Assembly: GCA_028707055.1 (NCBI GenBank)
Contig: JAQTVA010000003.1
Span: forward strand, 1 to 34,220
Length of the DNA: 34,220 bases
Direction: 5' to 3'
From: Candidatus Bipolaricaulis sp.
Lineage (GTDB): Bacteria > Bipolaricaulota > Bipolaricaulia > UBA7950 > UBA9294
The translations under genes were made by a program, and so were the position numbers. The notes beneath the pieces were generated by a model. It was not told the origin of the DNA. It saw nothing but the letters and a program-made list of their open reading frames with translations, and made no database searches. How positions within the stretch are numbered: position 1 is the stretch's first letter; every line of letters starts with the position of its first letter. Below, one piece after another: positions 8,026 through 13,103 of the stretch.

Positions 8026-10269
8026 GAGAACGGCAATCCGCGAATCACGGTCGAGAAAATCCTCAAGCTCGAGCGGTCCACCGGGTTCCGCGATGCGGCC
8101 GTGACCTGCGGGATCGAGGCGTTCATCGAGCGCCAGCTGCCCTCCGCTTGCTCGCTCGTCGCCGGATACGCCGAGGCGTCGCACTTCGACAGGCAGCGGA
8201 TGATCGCGCGGCTGGTCGATCACCTGGAAGGTCCGCCGTCGGCTCCCAGTGAGGCGGAGATCACGGCCCCCGTGGCGGGCCTCCGCGGAGTCGGCGCGAA
8301 GCGCGGGGCCCTCCTCGAGAAACTTGGCGTCACCACGGTCGAGGATCTGCTCTACTACCTCCCGCGGCGCCTCGAAGACCGAACGCGTTTCGCCTCGATC
8401 GGAACCCTGAAACCTGAAGACGAGGCGGTGGTCCGCGGCAAGATCCTCGCGGTCGATCAGCACCGCGCCGGCCGCGGAATGACCGTGGTGAAGGCGGCGA
8501 TCGGCGACGGAACGGGATTCCTCTACGCCGTCTGGTTCAACCAGCCTTGGATCGCGCAGCAGCTGCGTCGCGGGGAAGAGGTCGACGTGTTCGGGAGGGC
8601 GGAGTGGAAGTTCCGCGAGTGGCAGATGGCATCTCCAACGTGGGAGCCCGCCGGAGCAGGCCGAGAGATCGGGCGGCTCGTGCCGATCTACCCGGCCACG
8701 GAGGGCCTCACGGATCGTTTCGTCCGTGCGCTCGTCGAGCGGAACCTGGACGCGTATCTGCCCGCGGTTCGTGATGTCGTTCCCGGGGACGTACGCGCCG
8801 CTCAGGACCTGCCCGGCCCGCGCGAAGCGATCGCCTCGATCCACCGGCCTGCGGGACGGGAGGCGTTCGAGCGGGCGCGCCGCGCCCTCGCGTTTGAAGA
8901 GCTGTTCCTGCTTCAAGTTGGACTGCTGTCCACGACGCGGGACCGCGCCGGGGTGGCGCACGCCGGATCCGGTCAGCTCGTGAACTCGCTCCTCGCCAGC
9001 CTTCCGTTTCCCCTCACCGTCGCCCAGCAGCGAGCCCTACGCGAGATCCGCCACGATCTCTCCGAGCCGGTGCGTATGATGCGGCTCCTCCAAGGCGACG
9101 TCGGCTCGGGAAAGACGCTGGTCGCCGTGGCCGCCGCGCTGTGTGCCGTCGAAGCGGGCTACCAGGTTGCCCTGATGGCGCCGACCGAAATCCTGGCGGA
9201 GCAGCACGCGGCGAACCTCGACAGACTTCTGGCCGGGCTCCCTGTTCGCGTCGGCCTCCTCACGGGGACGACGTCCGGGGATGTCGACCTTCGCCGCTCG
9301 GTGGAAGAGGAGTTGGATCTGGTCGTGGGAACCCACGCCCTCATCCAGGAGTCGGTGACGTTCAGAAGGCTCGGCCTGGTGGTCATCGACGAGCAGCACC
9401 GGTTCGGTGTGGTCCAGCGCTCGCTCATCGAAGAGAAGGGCGAGCGCGTGGATCTTCTCGTGATGAGCGCGACGCCCATCCCGCGGACGATCGCGCTGAC
9501 CCTGTTCGGCGAGTTCGACATCTCCATCCTCGACGAGCTGCCGATGGGTGAGAAGCAGACGAGGACCCACTGGGTCGCCGAGGCGCGCCGCGAGGCCGTC
9601 TACGAAGAGGTCGGGAAGGCGCTCGAGGATGGGCGACGCGGGTACGTCATTCTGCCCCTCGTCGAGGAGTCAGAGAAGATCGACGCCAAGGCCGCAGTGA
9701 AGGTCTACGAGGAGTTGTCCGAGCGGTTCTCCCGCGCGCGCGTCGGCCTTCTCCACGGGCGTCTTCCCGCAGGCGAAAAGGCCGAGGTCATGACCCGCTT
9801 TCGTGGGGGCGACGTGCACCTCCTCGTGTCGACGACGGTCGTCGAGGTCGGCGTCGACATCCTCGACGCCGACTTCATGGTCATCGAGCATGCGGATCGG
9901 TTCGGACTTTCTCAGCTCCACCAGCTCCGAGGACGGATTGGCCGCTCCGGCCAGCCGTCGATCTGCTTCGCGATCGCCGATGCGCGGACGGACGAGGCCC
10001 GCCGGCGGTTGGAGGCGTTCCGCGACGTCGCCGACGGATTCGCCATCGCGGAGGAGGACCTGCGCATTCGGGGACCGGGCGACCTTCTCGGGACGCACCA
10101 GCACGGCTTTCTCACGCGATTTCGCGCTGTGGACCTGGTCGCCGACGTCAGCCTCATGGAGGCGGCTCAGGCGGCGGCGCGCGTTGTGCATCGCCGCGGG
10201 GTCGAGCCGGACACCGCCGCGGCCGCCGAGCGGCGCTTCGGCGAGGTCATTCGCTGGCTCCGTGTCTGA
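8017..10269 (+). CDS. recG: ATP-dependent DNA helicase RecG
   Basis: RLLQGDVGSGKT, VVIDEQHRFGVVQR, MSATPIPRT, GRIGRSGQPS; RecG wedge domain (RLEDRTRFASIG). Confidence 0.95.
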   Translation: MPQENGNPRITVEKILKLERSTGFRDAAVTCGIEAFIERQLPSACSLVAGYAEASHFDRQRMIARLVDHLEGPPSAPSEAEITAPVAGLRGVGAKRGALLEKLGVTTVEDLLYYLPRRLEDRTRFASIGTLKPEDEAVVRGKILAVDQHRAGRGMTVVKAAIGDGTGFLYAVWFNQPWIAQQLRRGEEVDVFGRAEWKFREWQMASPTWEPAGAGREIGRLVPIYPATEGLTDRFVRALVERNLDAYLPAVRDVVPGDVRAAQDLPGPREAIASIHRPAGREAFERARRALAFEELFLLQVGLLSTTRDRAGVAHAGSGQLVNSLLASLPFPLTVAQQRALREIRHDLSEPVRMMRLLQGDVGSGKTLVAVAAALCAVEAGYQVALMAPTEILAEQHAANLDRLLAGLPVRVGLLTGTTSGDVDLRRSVEEELDLVVGTHALIQESVTFRRLGLVVIDEQHRFGVVQRSLIEEKGERVDLLVMSATPIPRTIALTLFGEFDISILDELPMGEKQTRTHWVAEARREAVYEEVGKALEDGRRGYVILPLVEESEKIDAKAAVKVYEELSERFSRARVGLLHGRLPAGEKAEVMTRFRGGDVHLLVSTTVVEVGVDILDADFMVIEHADRFGLSQLHQLRGRIGRSGQPSICFAIADARTDEARRRLEAFRDVADGFAIAEEDLRIRGPGDLLGTHQHGFLTRFRAVDLVADVSLMEAAQAAARVVHRRGVEPDTAAAAERRFGEVIRWLRV

Positions 10270-10283
10270 CAACGCGGAAAGCG

Positions 10284-10293
10284 CAACGCAGAG
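10284..10293. repeat. Left copy of 10-bp inverted repeat CAACGCAGAG flanking the transporter island
   Basis: CAACGCAGAG at 10284-10293; reverse complement CTCTGCGTTG at 13586-13595. Confidence 0.35.
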
Positions 10294-10579
10294 CGCGCGG
10301 AGGGAACGGAGAAACCGCAGTGAGAACAGAGAGCCTGGGAGTGGAGGACGATCTTAGAACCCTGACGCCTCGGTTGATGGAGGAGCCTGCTTCGCTCTGA
10401 GTGTGTCGAAACAGAGACCTGTAGGGAACTACGTCCATAGCCCTCCTCTTCGGCTCAGGGAGTGGCTACAGAACTTCCAACCCAGTCGCGAATCGCGGCG
10501 ATCGCCCTGATGACTAGCCAGAGAATCAACCACCATGGGTGCATAGGGTCGAGCGTCATCTGACCTGGTCTCAGGGCGG

Positions 10580-11233
10580 CTACATCGGCACACGTATCCA
10601 GCGTTCGATGCCCCGCAGAAACGATGCTGCGATCGACACGAGCGCAAGGTAGATCAAGCCGACGATAAGGAATGTCTCGAAGAAGCGGAACGACTCGTAC
10701 GCAATCAACCTCCCTTCACCTGTCAGATCAACTAGCGTCACGAGGTAGGCAAGAGAGGAATACTTAATCAGATAGACGATCTCGTTGCTGCACCCGGGGA
10801 GCGCCTTCCGGAACACCTGCGGGAGGATGATGTGGATCACTGTCTGTCCAAGGCTCATTCCTAGCGCCCGTCCCGCGTCCATCTGCCCGTCGGGCACGGA
10901 GAGCACAGCGCTCCGTACGTATTCTGAGTGGTAGGCGCCACTGCAGAGGGTGAAGGCGAGGCTCGCGGCGACGAACGGTGTCATCGTGATTCCAACCCGC
11001 GGAAGCCCGTAGTAGAGAATGAACAGCTGAACGATCAGTGGAACACCACGGAACGTCAGTTGGTAGGCGCCGGCGAGGCCGCGAGAGAACCGGCCGCTGT
11101 AGACCTGGAGAAGACCAACAACAAGCCCCAGCGCCAGCCCCGCAGGGGCCGAGACGGCGATGAGGCGCAGGGTGACGAGGAGCCCATCCAGCAGTCGAGG
11201 GATCGCTTCAGCCAGCGCGGCGAAGGAGCTCAT
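10580..11233 (-). CDS. Polar amino-acid ABC transporter permease (HisM/GlnP type)
   Basis: LTFRGVPLIVQLFILYYGLP and DAGRALGMSLGQTVIHIILPQ (EAA loop); ATGA overlap with the upstream permease. Confidence 0.9.
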   Translation of the reverse strand: MSSFAALAEAIPRLLDGLLVTLRLIAVSAPAGLALGLVVGLLQVYSGRFSRGLAGAYQLTFRGVPLIVQLFILYYGLPRVGITMTPFVAASLAFTLCSGAYHSEYVRSAVLSVPDGQMDAGRALGMSLGQTVIHIILPQVFRKALPGCSNEIVYLIKYSSLAYLVTLVDLTGEGRLIAYESFRFFETFLIVGLIYLALVSIAASFLRGIERWIRVPM

Positions 11234-11916
11234 GGAAGCAGTCTCCTTTGCCGTTGCCCCAGGCCGGGAATCGCGACGCGACGCTCAATGATGCGGAAGA
11301 CAGCAACCCCCGCGTGGGTGAGTACGCAATAGAACACGGCAACGAGAGCATAGACAATCAGCGTCTCCCGACTTCGCATCGCGAGGAACTTGGCGCGACT
11401 CATCAGATCGACGACACCGACGGTGAATGCAAGGGCAGTGTCCTTGAGGACAATGGAGTACTCGTTGGACAGGGAAGGCAGCGAGAAGCGGGCGGCCTGA
11501 GGGATGACCACGTGGCGGATCGTCCGGGGCATCGAGAGGCCGAGAGCCCGTGCTGCGTCGATCTGCCCTCGGTCGACCATCTCCAGCGCACCGCGATAGA
11601 TCTGCCCTTGGTAGGCGGCGCTGCGAAGCCCGAGCGCAATGACGACGGCGGCGAACGGCGGAATCGAGACTCCGGGCAGCCTCCCGAGCCCGAAGAAGAC
11701 CAAGAACAGGAGCACGATCTCAGGGAACCCACGAAAGATGCGGTCGAAGACCCACAGTGCGGCGCGCATCGGTCGGGGGGCGTAGACGTGGGCGATTCCG
11801 ATAGGAACTCCCATCAGCATCCCTGCGGCGACTGAGCTAGCGACCAAAGCGAGCGAGATCCCTGCTCCGCGGCACAAGGCGGGAAGTGCGTTCCAGATCA
11901 TTGGGTACGTTGACAT
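11230..11916 (-). CDS. Polar amino-acid ABC transporter permease (HisQ/GlnP type)
   Basis: FRGFPEIVLLFLVFFGLG, DAARALGLSMPRTIRHVVIPQAAR. Confidence 0.9.
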   Translation of the reverse strand: MSTYPMIWNALPALCRGAGISLALVASSVAAGMLMGVPIGIAHVYAPRPMRAALWVFDRIFRGFPEIVLLFLVFFGLGRLPGVSIPPFAAVVIALGLRSAAYQGQIYRGALEMVDRGQIDAARALGLSMPRTIRHVVIPQAARFSLPSLSNEYSIVLKDTALAFTVGVVDLMSRAKFLAMRSRETLIVYALVAVFYCVLTHAGVAVFRIIERRVAIPGLGQRQRRLLP

Positions 11917-11958: not shown

Positions 11959-12729
11959 CTAGTTGCCGACAAGCCACGTATCGACCAGCCTGTCCCACGC
12001 GTCGCTTGCCTGAATCCGCCGTAGCCCCTCGTTGAGCAACGCGAGGAGCTCGGCGTCCTGCTTCCGGACGGCGTAGCCGTAGATTTCGCCGGTCTTGATC
12101 GTCCCGACGATGGTGAGCGGACGGTCGACGATCCCGGATCGTGCCGTCGGTTCGTCCATCACGGCGGCGTCAATGCGACCGATAAGCACATCCTCGAGTG
12201 CCAGGAGGAAGTTCTCGTAGAGGACGAGTTGGACATCAATCCCGGCGCCAATGACATTCTCCTCGAGCCAATCCTGAGAGGTCGTTCCTCTCTGCACGCC
12301 GATCTTGCGTCCGGTCTGGACGGCGGAGAAGAGTGTTAGTTCCGGCACCGGCTCGCCCTCGGCGTCCTTGGTCTCCCGTACGACGACAGCGAGATCGATT
12401 GTCCAGTAGGGACTGGTGAATGCGACCTGCTCCTGACGTGCTGCAGTGATCGTCATCCCCGAGGCGATGAGATTGATGTTCCCGGCGATCAACATCGGGA
12501 TGATCGCATCCCAGTCGATGGGAATGATCTTCACCTCGAAACCCATCTCGTCAGCGATCCAGCGAATCACGTCGACGTCGAATCCAGCCGGTTGGCCCTT
12601 CTCGTCGATGAACGAGAACGGCGGGAACGCTGCATCGATCCCGTCAACGTACACCACTTCTGCTGCCATGGCGCTTCCAGCACCAAGCGCGACACAAATA
12701 AACATACATATCATGATGTATTTATTCAT
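11959..12729 (-). CDS. Amino-acid ABC transporter substrate-binding protein (family 3, HisJ/GlnH-like)
   Basis: Signal peptide; FPPFSFIDEKGQPAGFDVDVIRWIADEMGFEVKIIPIDWDAIIPMLIAGNINLIASGMTIT; SD AAAGGAGATCAAG-ATG. Confidence 0.93.
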   Translation of the reverse strand: MNKYIMICMFICVALGAGSAMAAEVVYVDGIDAAFPPFSFIDEKGQPAGFDVDVIRWIADEMGFEVKIIPIDWDAIIPMLIAGNINLIASGMTITAARQEQVAFTSPYWTIDLAVVVRETKDAEGEPVPELTLFSAVQTGRKIGVQRGTTSQDWLEENVIGAGIDVQLVLYENFLLALEDVLIGRIDAAVMDEPTARSGIVDRPLTIVGTIKTGEIYGYAVRKQDAELLALLNEGLRRIQASDAWDRLVDTWLVGN

Positions 12730-12774: not shown

Positions 12775-12879
12775 TCAGTCCGTCGCTCGGTCCGCTAGGT
12801 GTCTCTCAGTACGGTCCCAGACGGGACCGTGCGGCCAGAAGACAGAGCGCAACGGATACGGAATGAGACCGGTTCGCAC
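12775..12879 (-). CDS. Putative leader ORF 2 (34 aa) upstream of the amino-acid transporter
   Basis: GTG start with AAAGGAGGT SD at 5-nt spacing; MRTGLIPYPLRSVFWPHGPVWDRTERHLADRATD*. Below the ORF-track cutoff. Confidence 0.55.
   Translation of the reverse strand: MRTGLIPYPLRSVFWPHGPVWDRTERHLADRATD
12811..12830 (-). promoter_or_regulatory. Perfect 8-bp stem, 4-nt loop hairpin inside leader ORF 2
   Basis: Plus strand ACGGTCCC-AGAC-GGGACCGT. Confidence 0.6.
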
Positions 12880-12885
12880 GGGCGA

Positions 12886-12931
12886 CCTCCTTTCGAAATC
12901 GAAGCAGCGGAACGGGCTTCGTGCTAGGAGG
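12886..12931 (-). promoter_or_regulatory. Nested hairpin that could sequester the leader ORF 2 SD
   Basis: Minus strand CCTCCT(12931-12926)-agca-CGAAGC(12921-12916)-loop-GCTTCG(12905-12900)-atttcgaa-AGGAGG(12891-12886): two nested perfect 6-bp stems. Confidence 0.5.
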
Positions 12932-13046
12932 AAGGCCAGGCCGTCAGGTGGTTGTGCGGATGAGCAGTGATACTGCTGTGAGCGTGATGATGCGCGTGGA
13001 AGGTGGAACCTATCGACATTCGACCGCTTGTACGCGTCTTCAACAT
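12924..13046 (-). CDS. Putative His-rich leader peptide (leader ORF 1, 40 aa)
   Basis: MLKTRTSGRMSIGSTFHAHHHAHSSITAHPHNHLTAWPSS*; ATG preceded by GGAGGT at 7-nt spacing and a promoter-like element. The ORF track shows it only as the C-terminal part of a longer 79-aa frame. Confidence 0.65.
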   Translation of the reverse strand: MLKTRTSGRMSIGSTFHAHHHAHSSITAHPHNHLTAWPSS

Positions 13047-13074
13047 CGTAACCACCTCCACGCGAGATGAGCCT

Positions 13075-13103
13075 AGTCTACTGGAGAGCGTGGGCTCCGG
13101 CAA
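13075..13103 (-). promoter_or_regulatory. Putative promoter of the leader-transporter transcript
   Basis: Minus strand TTGCCG (13098-13103) - 17 bp - TAGACT (13075-13080), about 30 nt before leader ORF 1. Confidence 0.4.

Follow-up and report, generated by a model that had tools for sequence, protein, structure and literature searches.

A conserved histidine-codon leader upstream of an amino-acid ABC importer in Bipolaricaulota, a probable leader-peptide attenuator

Results

The importer locus and its upstream region

The window analysed here is a stretch of 34,220 nucleotides from a contig that forms part of a fragmented 1.64 Mb genome of a Candidatus Bipolaricaulis species, and all features described below lie on its minus strand. 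An SBP_bac_3 gene (11959–12729; Pfam PF00497, E = 7.5e-39) encodes the substrate-binding protein (SBP) of a polar amino-acid ABC transporter and is accompanied by two ABC permease genes of the PAAT type (11230–11916 and 10580–11233), both matching PF00528 and both above the cut-off of TIGR01726. The relatives of the SBP in PDB and NCBIfam are of the LAO/Arg/Gln/His type, including Gln/Arg, Lys/Arg/Orn and His binders, and since the resemblance stays below the specific cut-offs, the substrate cannot be fixed by sequence. Orthologs of the SBP (about 63–75% identity) were found in eight other genomes and in the record L032; the closest named records carrying the gene are Candidatus Acetothermia/Bipolaricaulota. 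An ABC ATPase gene does not directly follow the two permeases (10269–10580 in the window), where the neighbour on the other strand is RecG, and the importer therefore presumably uses an ATPase encoded elsewhere.

Two short open reading frames precede the SBP gene. Leader 1 (MLKTRTSGRMSIGSTFHAHHHAHSSITAHPHNHLTAWPSS; 12924–13046, ATG 13046 to TAG 12924) is a His-rich ORF of 40 aa, and leader 2 (MRTGLIPYPLRSVFWPHGPVWDRTERHLADRATD; 12775–12879, GTG 12879 to TGA 12775) has 34 aa, as the sequence-only reading had described it. A candidate sigma-70-type promoter, TTGCCG-17-TAGACT (13075–13103), was read by eye upstream of leader 1 and gets no score in a promoter scan, which does score the equivalent site in L004, L006 and L009. 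In those relatives whose contig reaches far enough, a promoter-like TTGACA/TTGCAN-17-TAnnnT is located just 5′ of the Shine-Dalgarno sequence of leader 1 (SD1).

A His-rich leader is conserved upstream of the SBP gene

A His leader with its own Shine-Dalgarno (SD) sequence was found 5′ of the orthologous SBP gene in all nine Bipolaricaulota genomes with complete upstream DNA, and a tenth record, L032, which is cut at its 5′-end, held a partial His leader (LHAHHPVHHGHLHI). The core of leader 1, H[FL]HAHH or HAHHHAH, was present at the same place in the nine genomes and in L032, while the N-terminal parts diverged among relatives. The cores read LHAHLHAHHGPSWDRSL in G020, HFHAHHAPVRGHLS in G008, HLHAHHVTLRAHTSARSGRI in G010, HFHAHQGHLV in G021, HFHAHHGPHQDHLA in G015, HFHAHHGPFQGHHA in G023, LHAHHHAHHGHQS in G005 and LHHHCIHR in G016. 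The general marks of a leader peptide, an SD and repeated sensed codons ahead of a supply gene, thus recur across genera in nine genomes and L032.

The pattern GTGGAGGTGGTNRYNATG occurred in five of 100 genomes of the phylum and only at the locus upstream of the SBP gene. When a covariance model of eight leader-1 members was run against the 100 genomes, it recovered these eight at E ≤ 1e-14, with the next match at 2e-4 and nothing comparable elsewhere. Rfam searches of the window and the related loci gave no match to a riboswitch, a T-box or any other curated family. More remote SBP paralogs, those of Atribacteria and methanogen records among them, had no His-rich leader upstream, and nothing convincing emerged when 1.6 Mb of G013 was surveyed for further leaders with single-residue runs. 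Leader 1 is probably a real, translated ORF.

The leader-1 codons for H-A-H-H (GCCCATCAC) are complementary over 9–11 nt to SBP signal-peptide codons (GTGATGGGC) in G008, G015 and G021 (loci L004, L006 and L008). As a functional element this complementarity was rejected as weak, shared ancestry or chance being the likely causes.

SD1 pairs with the His-codon segment, and a hairpin follows the His run

The extended SD1 (CGCGTGGAGGTGG, 13052–13064) forms the 5′ arm of a stem, here called stem A, whose 3′ arm (CCACCTTCCACGCG, 13006–12993) overlaps the first His codon (12998–12996). The 5′ arm is kept in 9/9 complete leaders. In each of the nine genomes the duplex between SD1 and the segment just before and overlapping the first His codons exceeded dinucleotide shuffles (p ≤ 0.04), and one pair of stem A occurs as G-C, G-U and A-U across the relatives. 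Compared with synonymous recodings that leave the peptide unchanged, stem A was still enriched, at a combined p of 0.0014 that is too strong because related genomes were counted as independent. The SD1 complementarity is therefore partly due to the H-F/L-H codons themselves, which account for much of it. The RNA fold of the whole leader in the window was no stronger than those of shuffles.

Directly after the HAHHHAH run of the window lies hairpin B, AGCAGT-ATC-ACTGCT (12963–12977; p = 0.010 in the window). Most of the genomes have a hairpin after the His run, built from different stems: AGCAGU/ACUGCU, GGUCCC/GGGACC, GGUCCU/AGGACC, GCCC/GGGC, GUCC/GGAC and others. Over ten sequences, in three of which the start of the segment was picked by eye, the Fisher combined p was 1e-7, inflated by relatedness in the same way as that of stem A; taken singly, the hairpin was not significant in G008, G010, G021 and G016.

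The output step

A run of His codons with a hairpin behind it is the arrangement of his operon attenuators, with candidate his attenuators reported in Firmicutes (PMC9413887), and transcription attenuation of the classical his type, which relies on an intrinsic terminator, was therefore weighed as a rival explanation. However, a scan of seven loci, the window and six relatives, detected no convincing hairpin plus T-run in the leader beyond chance; its two matches were one that falls within the G020 SBP gene and a weak 5-pair stem in G005. The sequence-only reading had likewise seen no GC hairpin followed by a T-run in the window, and a terminator conserved in homologs, which it had named as a sign of a different mechanism, was looked for in these loci without a convincing find. 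Mutually exclusive 1:2/2:3 helices around hairpin B are not indicated either, the 3′ arm pairing downstream no better than shuffles. Classical attenuation is thus largely refuted by the sequence already, and we regard it as very improbable.

A conserved leader mask on the importer SD was also rejected. Masking by the sensed-codon segment gave a Fisher p of 0.18 for the His leaders, and a search of the whole leader for a partner of the importer SD was not significant in most genomes and yielded no conserved partner. The rho gene is present in 9/9 leader genomes. With regard to rut-like composition, the segment after leader 1 is low in G (lowest 3%) in G021, G005 and G015, with an excess of C over G only in G021 and G005, and C-rich, G-poor composition is absent at this position in the window and in G016. 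Because there is neither an intrinsic terminator nor a conserved mask on the importer SD, we favour, with modest confidence, an output step in which Rho or RNA decay would act on ribosome-free RNA after leader 1.

Leader 2 is a lineage-specific addition

Leader 2 was found in three genomes, those of the window, G005 and G016, and the other genomes have one leader; it is a lineage-specific add-on of the window and its closest relatives. Its SD in the window (SD2, AAAGGAGGT, 12885–12893) is the sole exact copy there, with 0.13 expected by chance. A homolog occupies the same place in G005, with 17 of the 19 N-terminal residues identical. Among these first 19 codons, 12 were identical between G000 and G005, 5 differed synonymously and 2 changed the residue (P = 0.008 versus random change). 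G016 has a weaker counterpart (MFPRSRNLCCPPYRDWHGPSRDL), and when the rest of the phylum was searched, the best matches beyond G000 and G005 were either unrelated coding DNA or due to chance. Leader 2, like leader 1, is probably translated and a real ORF.

A hairpin within leader 2, ACGGTCCC-GTCT-GGGACCGT (12811–12830; p = 0.018 in the window), follows the codons for W-P-H. A CAC-GGTCC(C/T) hairpin of this kind is also found inside leader 1 of G020 and G015, and in the form CACGGTCCC-nnnn-GGGACCGT it is nearly identical to the leader-1 hairpin of G020, where it stands directly after HH. On the basis of this near match, leader 2 may have been derived by splitting or copying an older single leader. 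A search within leader 2 for a stem like that of SD1 was negative (p > 0.8 in all three genomes).

We also considered leader 2 as an arrest peptide (IPYPLRxVFWPHGP) that would stall ribosomes on another signal, for example Trp. Its residues are kept between G000 and G005 while the N-terminal part of leader 1 diverges, and the hairpin stands directly 3′ of W-P-H; however, there are only two clear members, and the last seven codons of the motif are identical in DNA, for which an RNA constraint would account as well. An arrest peptide is an improbable explanation.

The proposed masking of SD2 and a two-step relay

The sequence-only reading had proposed that the stop-codon region of leader 1 sequesters SD2 and that the two leaders form a relay, in which a ribosome terminating on leader 1 would open the mask and translation of leader 2 would in turn control the importer, either through coupling or by keeping Rho away. 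The elements are where that reading had put them: CCTCCT within the final codons of leader 1 (12931–12926), the nested CGAAGC/GCTTCG stem and AGGAGG (12891–12886). The window contains a single exact CCTCCT-N20..45-AGGAGG pair, against 0.12 expected. Both stems form in the predicted RNA fold, but 59 of 200 dinucleotide shuffles folded at least as well, as did 52 of 500 for a slightly different mask segment, and the duplex energy between the end of leader 1 and SD2 was matched by roughly 13–34% of the shuffles. The CCTCCT:AGGAGG stem is absent as sequence from the two other genomes with leader 2, G005 and G016; the proposed anti-SD is present in the window and is neither conserved as sequence nor above chance.

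What recurs is the position of the pairing. The predicted folds in all three two-leader genomes pair the start region of leader 2 with the end of leader 1 by unrelated sequences. In G016 an unrelated, stronger pairing of UGCAUUCACC with GGUGAAUGUA was mostly significant (p about 0.005–0.03, up to 0.1 with the widest window), whereas that of G005 was inconsistent and not clearly above chance, so the predicted masking of SD2 by the end of leader 1 is significant in G016 only. In G005 (L010), the stop codon TAA of leader 2 sits on the importer SD (TAAGGAG; CGATAAGGAGATTTACATG), and termination-reinitiation coupling is therefore possible there and not in the window; in the window the end of leader 2 and the importer are 45 nt apart. 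Two-leader attenuators are known in ErmB (PMC8274638). Against the relay, leader 2 is lacking at most orthologous loci, and because these have a single leader, the relay cannot be the general mechanism. Moreover, if translation of leader 2 promotes expression, the importer would be on when histidine is plentiful, the wrong sign for uptake. A relay of this kind is in our judgement unlikely, also for the window. The earlier reading is hence retained for the two ORFs, both of which look translated, for leader 1 as a His leader and for the missing terminator, but not for the mask in the form proposed. The RNA element that is conserved, stem A, was not among the features named in that reading.

Histidine supply in the phylum

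Histidinol dehydrogenase was absent from 91 of the 100 genomes of the phylum and from eight of the nine leader genomes, G023 being the only one that has it. Several of these genomes are 70–95% complete, so that single absences are weak; the pattern is broad nonetheless and suggests widespread histidine auxotrophy in the Bipolaricaulota. Where the enzyme is missing, histidine probably must be imported, and if import is essential, a leader with His codons would be a sensible control for an importer.

Asn-rich leaders upstream of asparagine synthetase

The next-best matches of the covariance model, weak as they were, pointed to an asparagine synthetase A-like gene that is preceded by an Asn-rich leader. 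This gene was found in 47 of the 100 genomes, G000 being without a match at the cut-off used. Asn-rich leaders (NNAPxGA, PLGPANNAPxGA before the stop) were present in most of the Bipolaricaulota loci inspected (L079, L080, L175–L192, L195–L219), such as MKKLQRPTTILLPELYLNNNHPLTCNNAPCGANN in G008. A more distant family, f4, displays ...PLGPAN(N/TN)APxGA in the 25 loci inspected, with the exceptions of G062, which has NPNAPARA (read by eye), and G068, in which the ORF stops after NNNAP. In their common layout the sensed codons are followed by [A/G]-P and, close to the stop, by a GC hairpin. Leaders with few Asn codons (SLANRTLFSLANQVARG) were seen at the synthetase loci of G001, G002 and G014 (L193, L191 and L189), which might reflect a decayed or altered sensing function.

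In f4, the Asn codons are immediately preceded by codons complementary to the SD of the synthetase, for example GATCTCCCTTGGGG with TCCCAAGGGAGGTC, at a combined p of 1.7e-9 in which relatedness is ignored. Pairing of the Asn leaders with their own SD, in the manner of stem A, was weaker (p = 0.0024 in f4 and 0.0055 in f1). Neither the His- nor the Asn-leader group is covered by any Rfam family, and a literature search found no paper on either group.

The Asn leaders also bear on a further rival, in which leader 1 would be a metal-sensing, His-rich nascent peptide and not a sensor of tRNA-His. The His-rich core has conserved intervening residues, and CruR, an upstream ORF that senses copper and works through Rho, provides a precedent. 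But the genes downstream are those of an amino-acid importer in apparent His auxotrophs, the conserved core has no Cys motif, and parallel Asn leaders stand before asparagine synthetase. Metal sensing therefore has, in our estimate, a very small chance of being correct.

Discussion

The upstream region of the SBP gene is probably, though by no means certainly, a histidine-responsive leader-peptide attenuator of an amino-acid, likely histidine, ABC importer. This reading is based on the His leader at 9/9 loci, the covariance model, stem A, the hairpin after the His run and the missing histidinol dehydrogenase, together with the polar amino-acid SBP as the product, Rho in 9/9 genomes, the lack of a convincing terminator and the parallel Asn leaders. 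The sample consists of metagenome-assembled genomes with few two-leader members, and the shuffle p-values ignore ancestry.

The working of such an attenuator may be depicted as follows: The promoter would set SD1 near the 5′-end of the RNA. In free RNA, SD1 would be masked in stem A. A ribosome translating leader 1 under a shortage of charged tRNA-His would stall on the HAHHHAH run and cover the segment at the first His codons, so that SD1 is left open and the leader stays loaded with ribosomes. In histidine plenty the ribosome would run off, stem A would close and leader 1 would fall silent. We infer that the importer is then most likely affected through the stretch after leader 1, which would be free of ribosomes and thereby open to Rho or decay; in the window and its closest relatives this stretch is occupied by the leader 2 ORF.

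If so, control of amino-acid supply by ribosome stalling would extend to a deep, uncultured phylum of apparent histidine auxotrophs, and the sensed target would be an importer, not a biosynthetic operon. The pairing of a leader's own SD with its sensed codons lends itself to direct tests, and the parallel Asn leaders point to a shared architecture outside the Rfam families. A tentative generalisation, which we hold to be possible and rather less probable than the attenuator itself, is that of phylum-wide leader-peptide switches in which the segment of sensed codons serves as an anti-SD, either for the leader itself (His) or for the regulated gene (the Asn leaders of f4), and in which a stalled ribosome would lift this mask directly; the tandem leaders of the window would be one version of it.

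Among known systems the locus is best filed within amino-acid leader-peptide attenuation, with sensing resembling that of hisL in the absence of the hisL terminator. With hisL of Proteobacteria and the Firmicutes candidates (PMC9413887) it shares a short translated His-run ORF before genes of histidine supply, followed by a hairpin. It differs from these in having no intrinsic terminator or antiterminator and an SD of its own that pairs with the His-codon segment, and its target is an importer in apparent His auxotrophs of another phylum. In the Actinobacteria LEU element the SD of the structural gene is paired with a codon run, and the mycobacterial cys leaders have no obvious terminator, Rho being suspected (PMC1262725); the sensed-codon segment as an anti-SD and leaders without terminator are thus common features, whereas in the His leader the pairing is with its own SD and not with that of the structural gene, so that the Asn leaders of f4 are closer to LEU. 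The translational attenuator of ErmB (PMC8274638) also has two tandem leader peptides before the regulated gene, but it senses an antibiotic, while here leader 2 is restricted to one lineage and the predicted masking of its SD is significant only in G016. The Rho-dependent upstream ORF regulators of the CruR type (PMC9426467), finally, are alike in the upstream ORF, the missing intrinsic terminator and the presence of Rho; unlike them, the His leader is without a RAPP or CXXC motif, rut features are not conserved, and the action of Rho at this locus is a presumed one.
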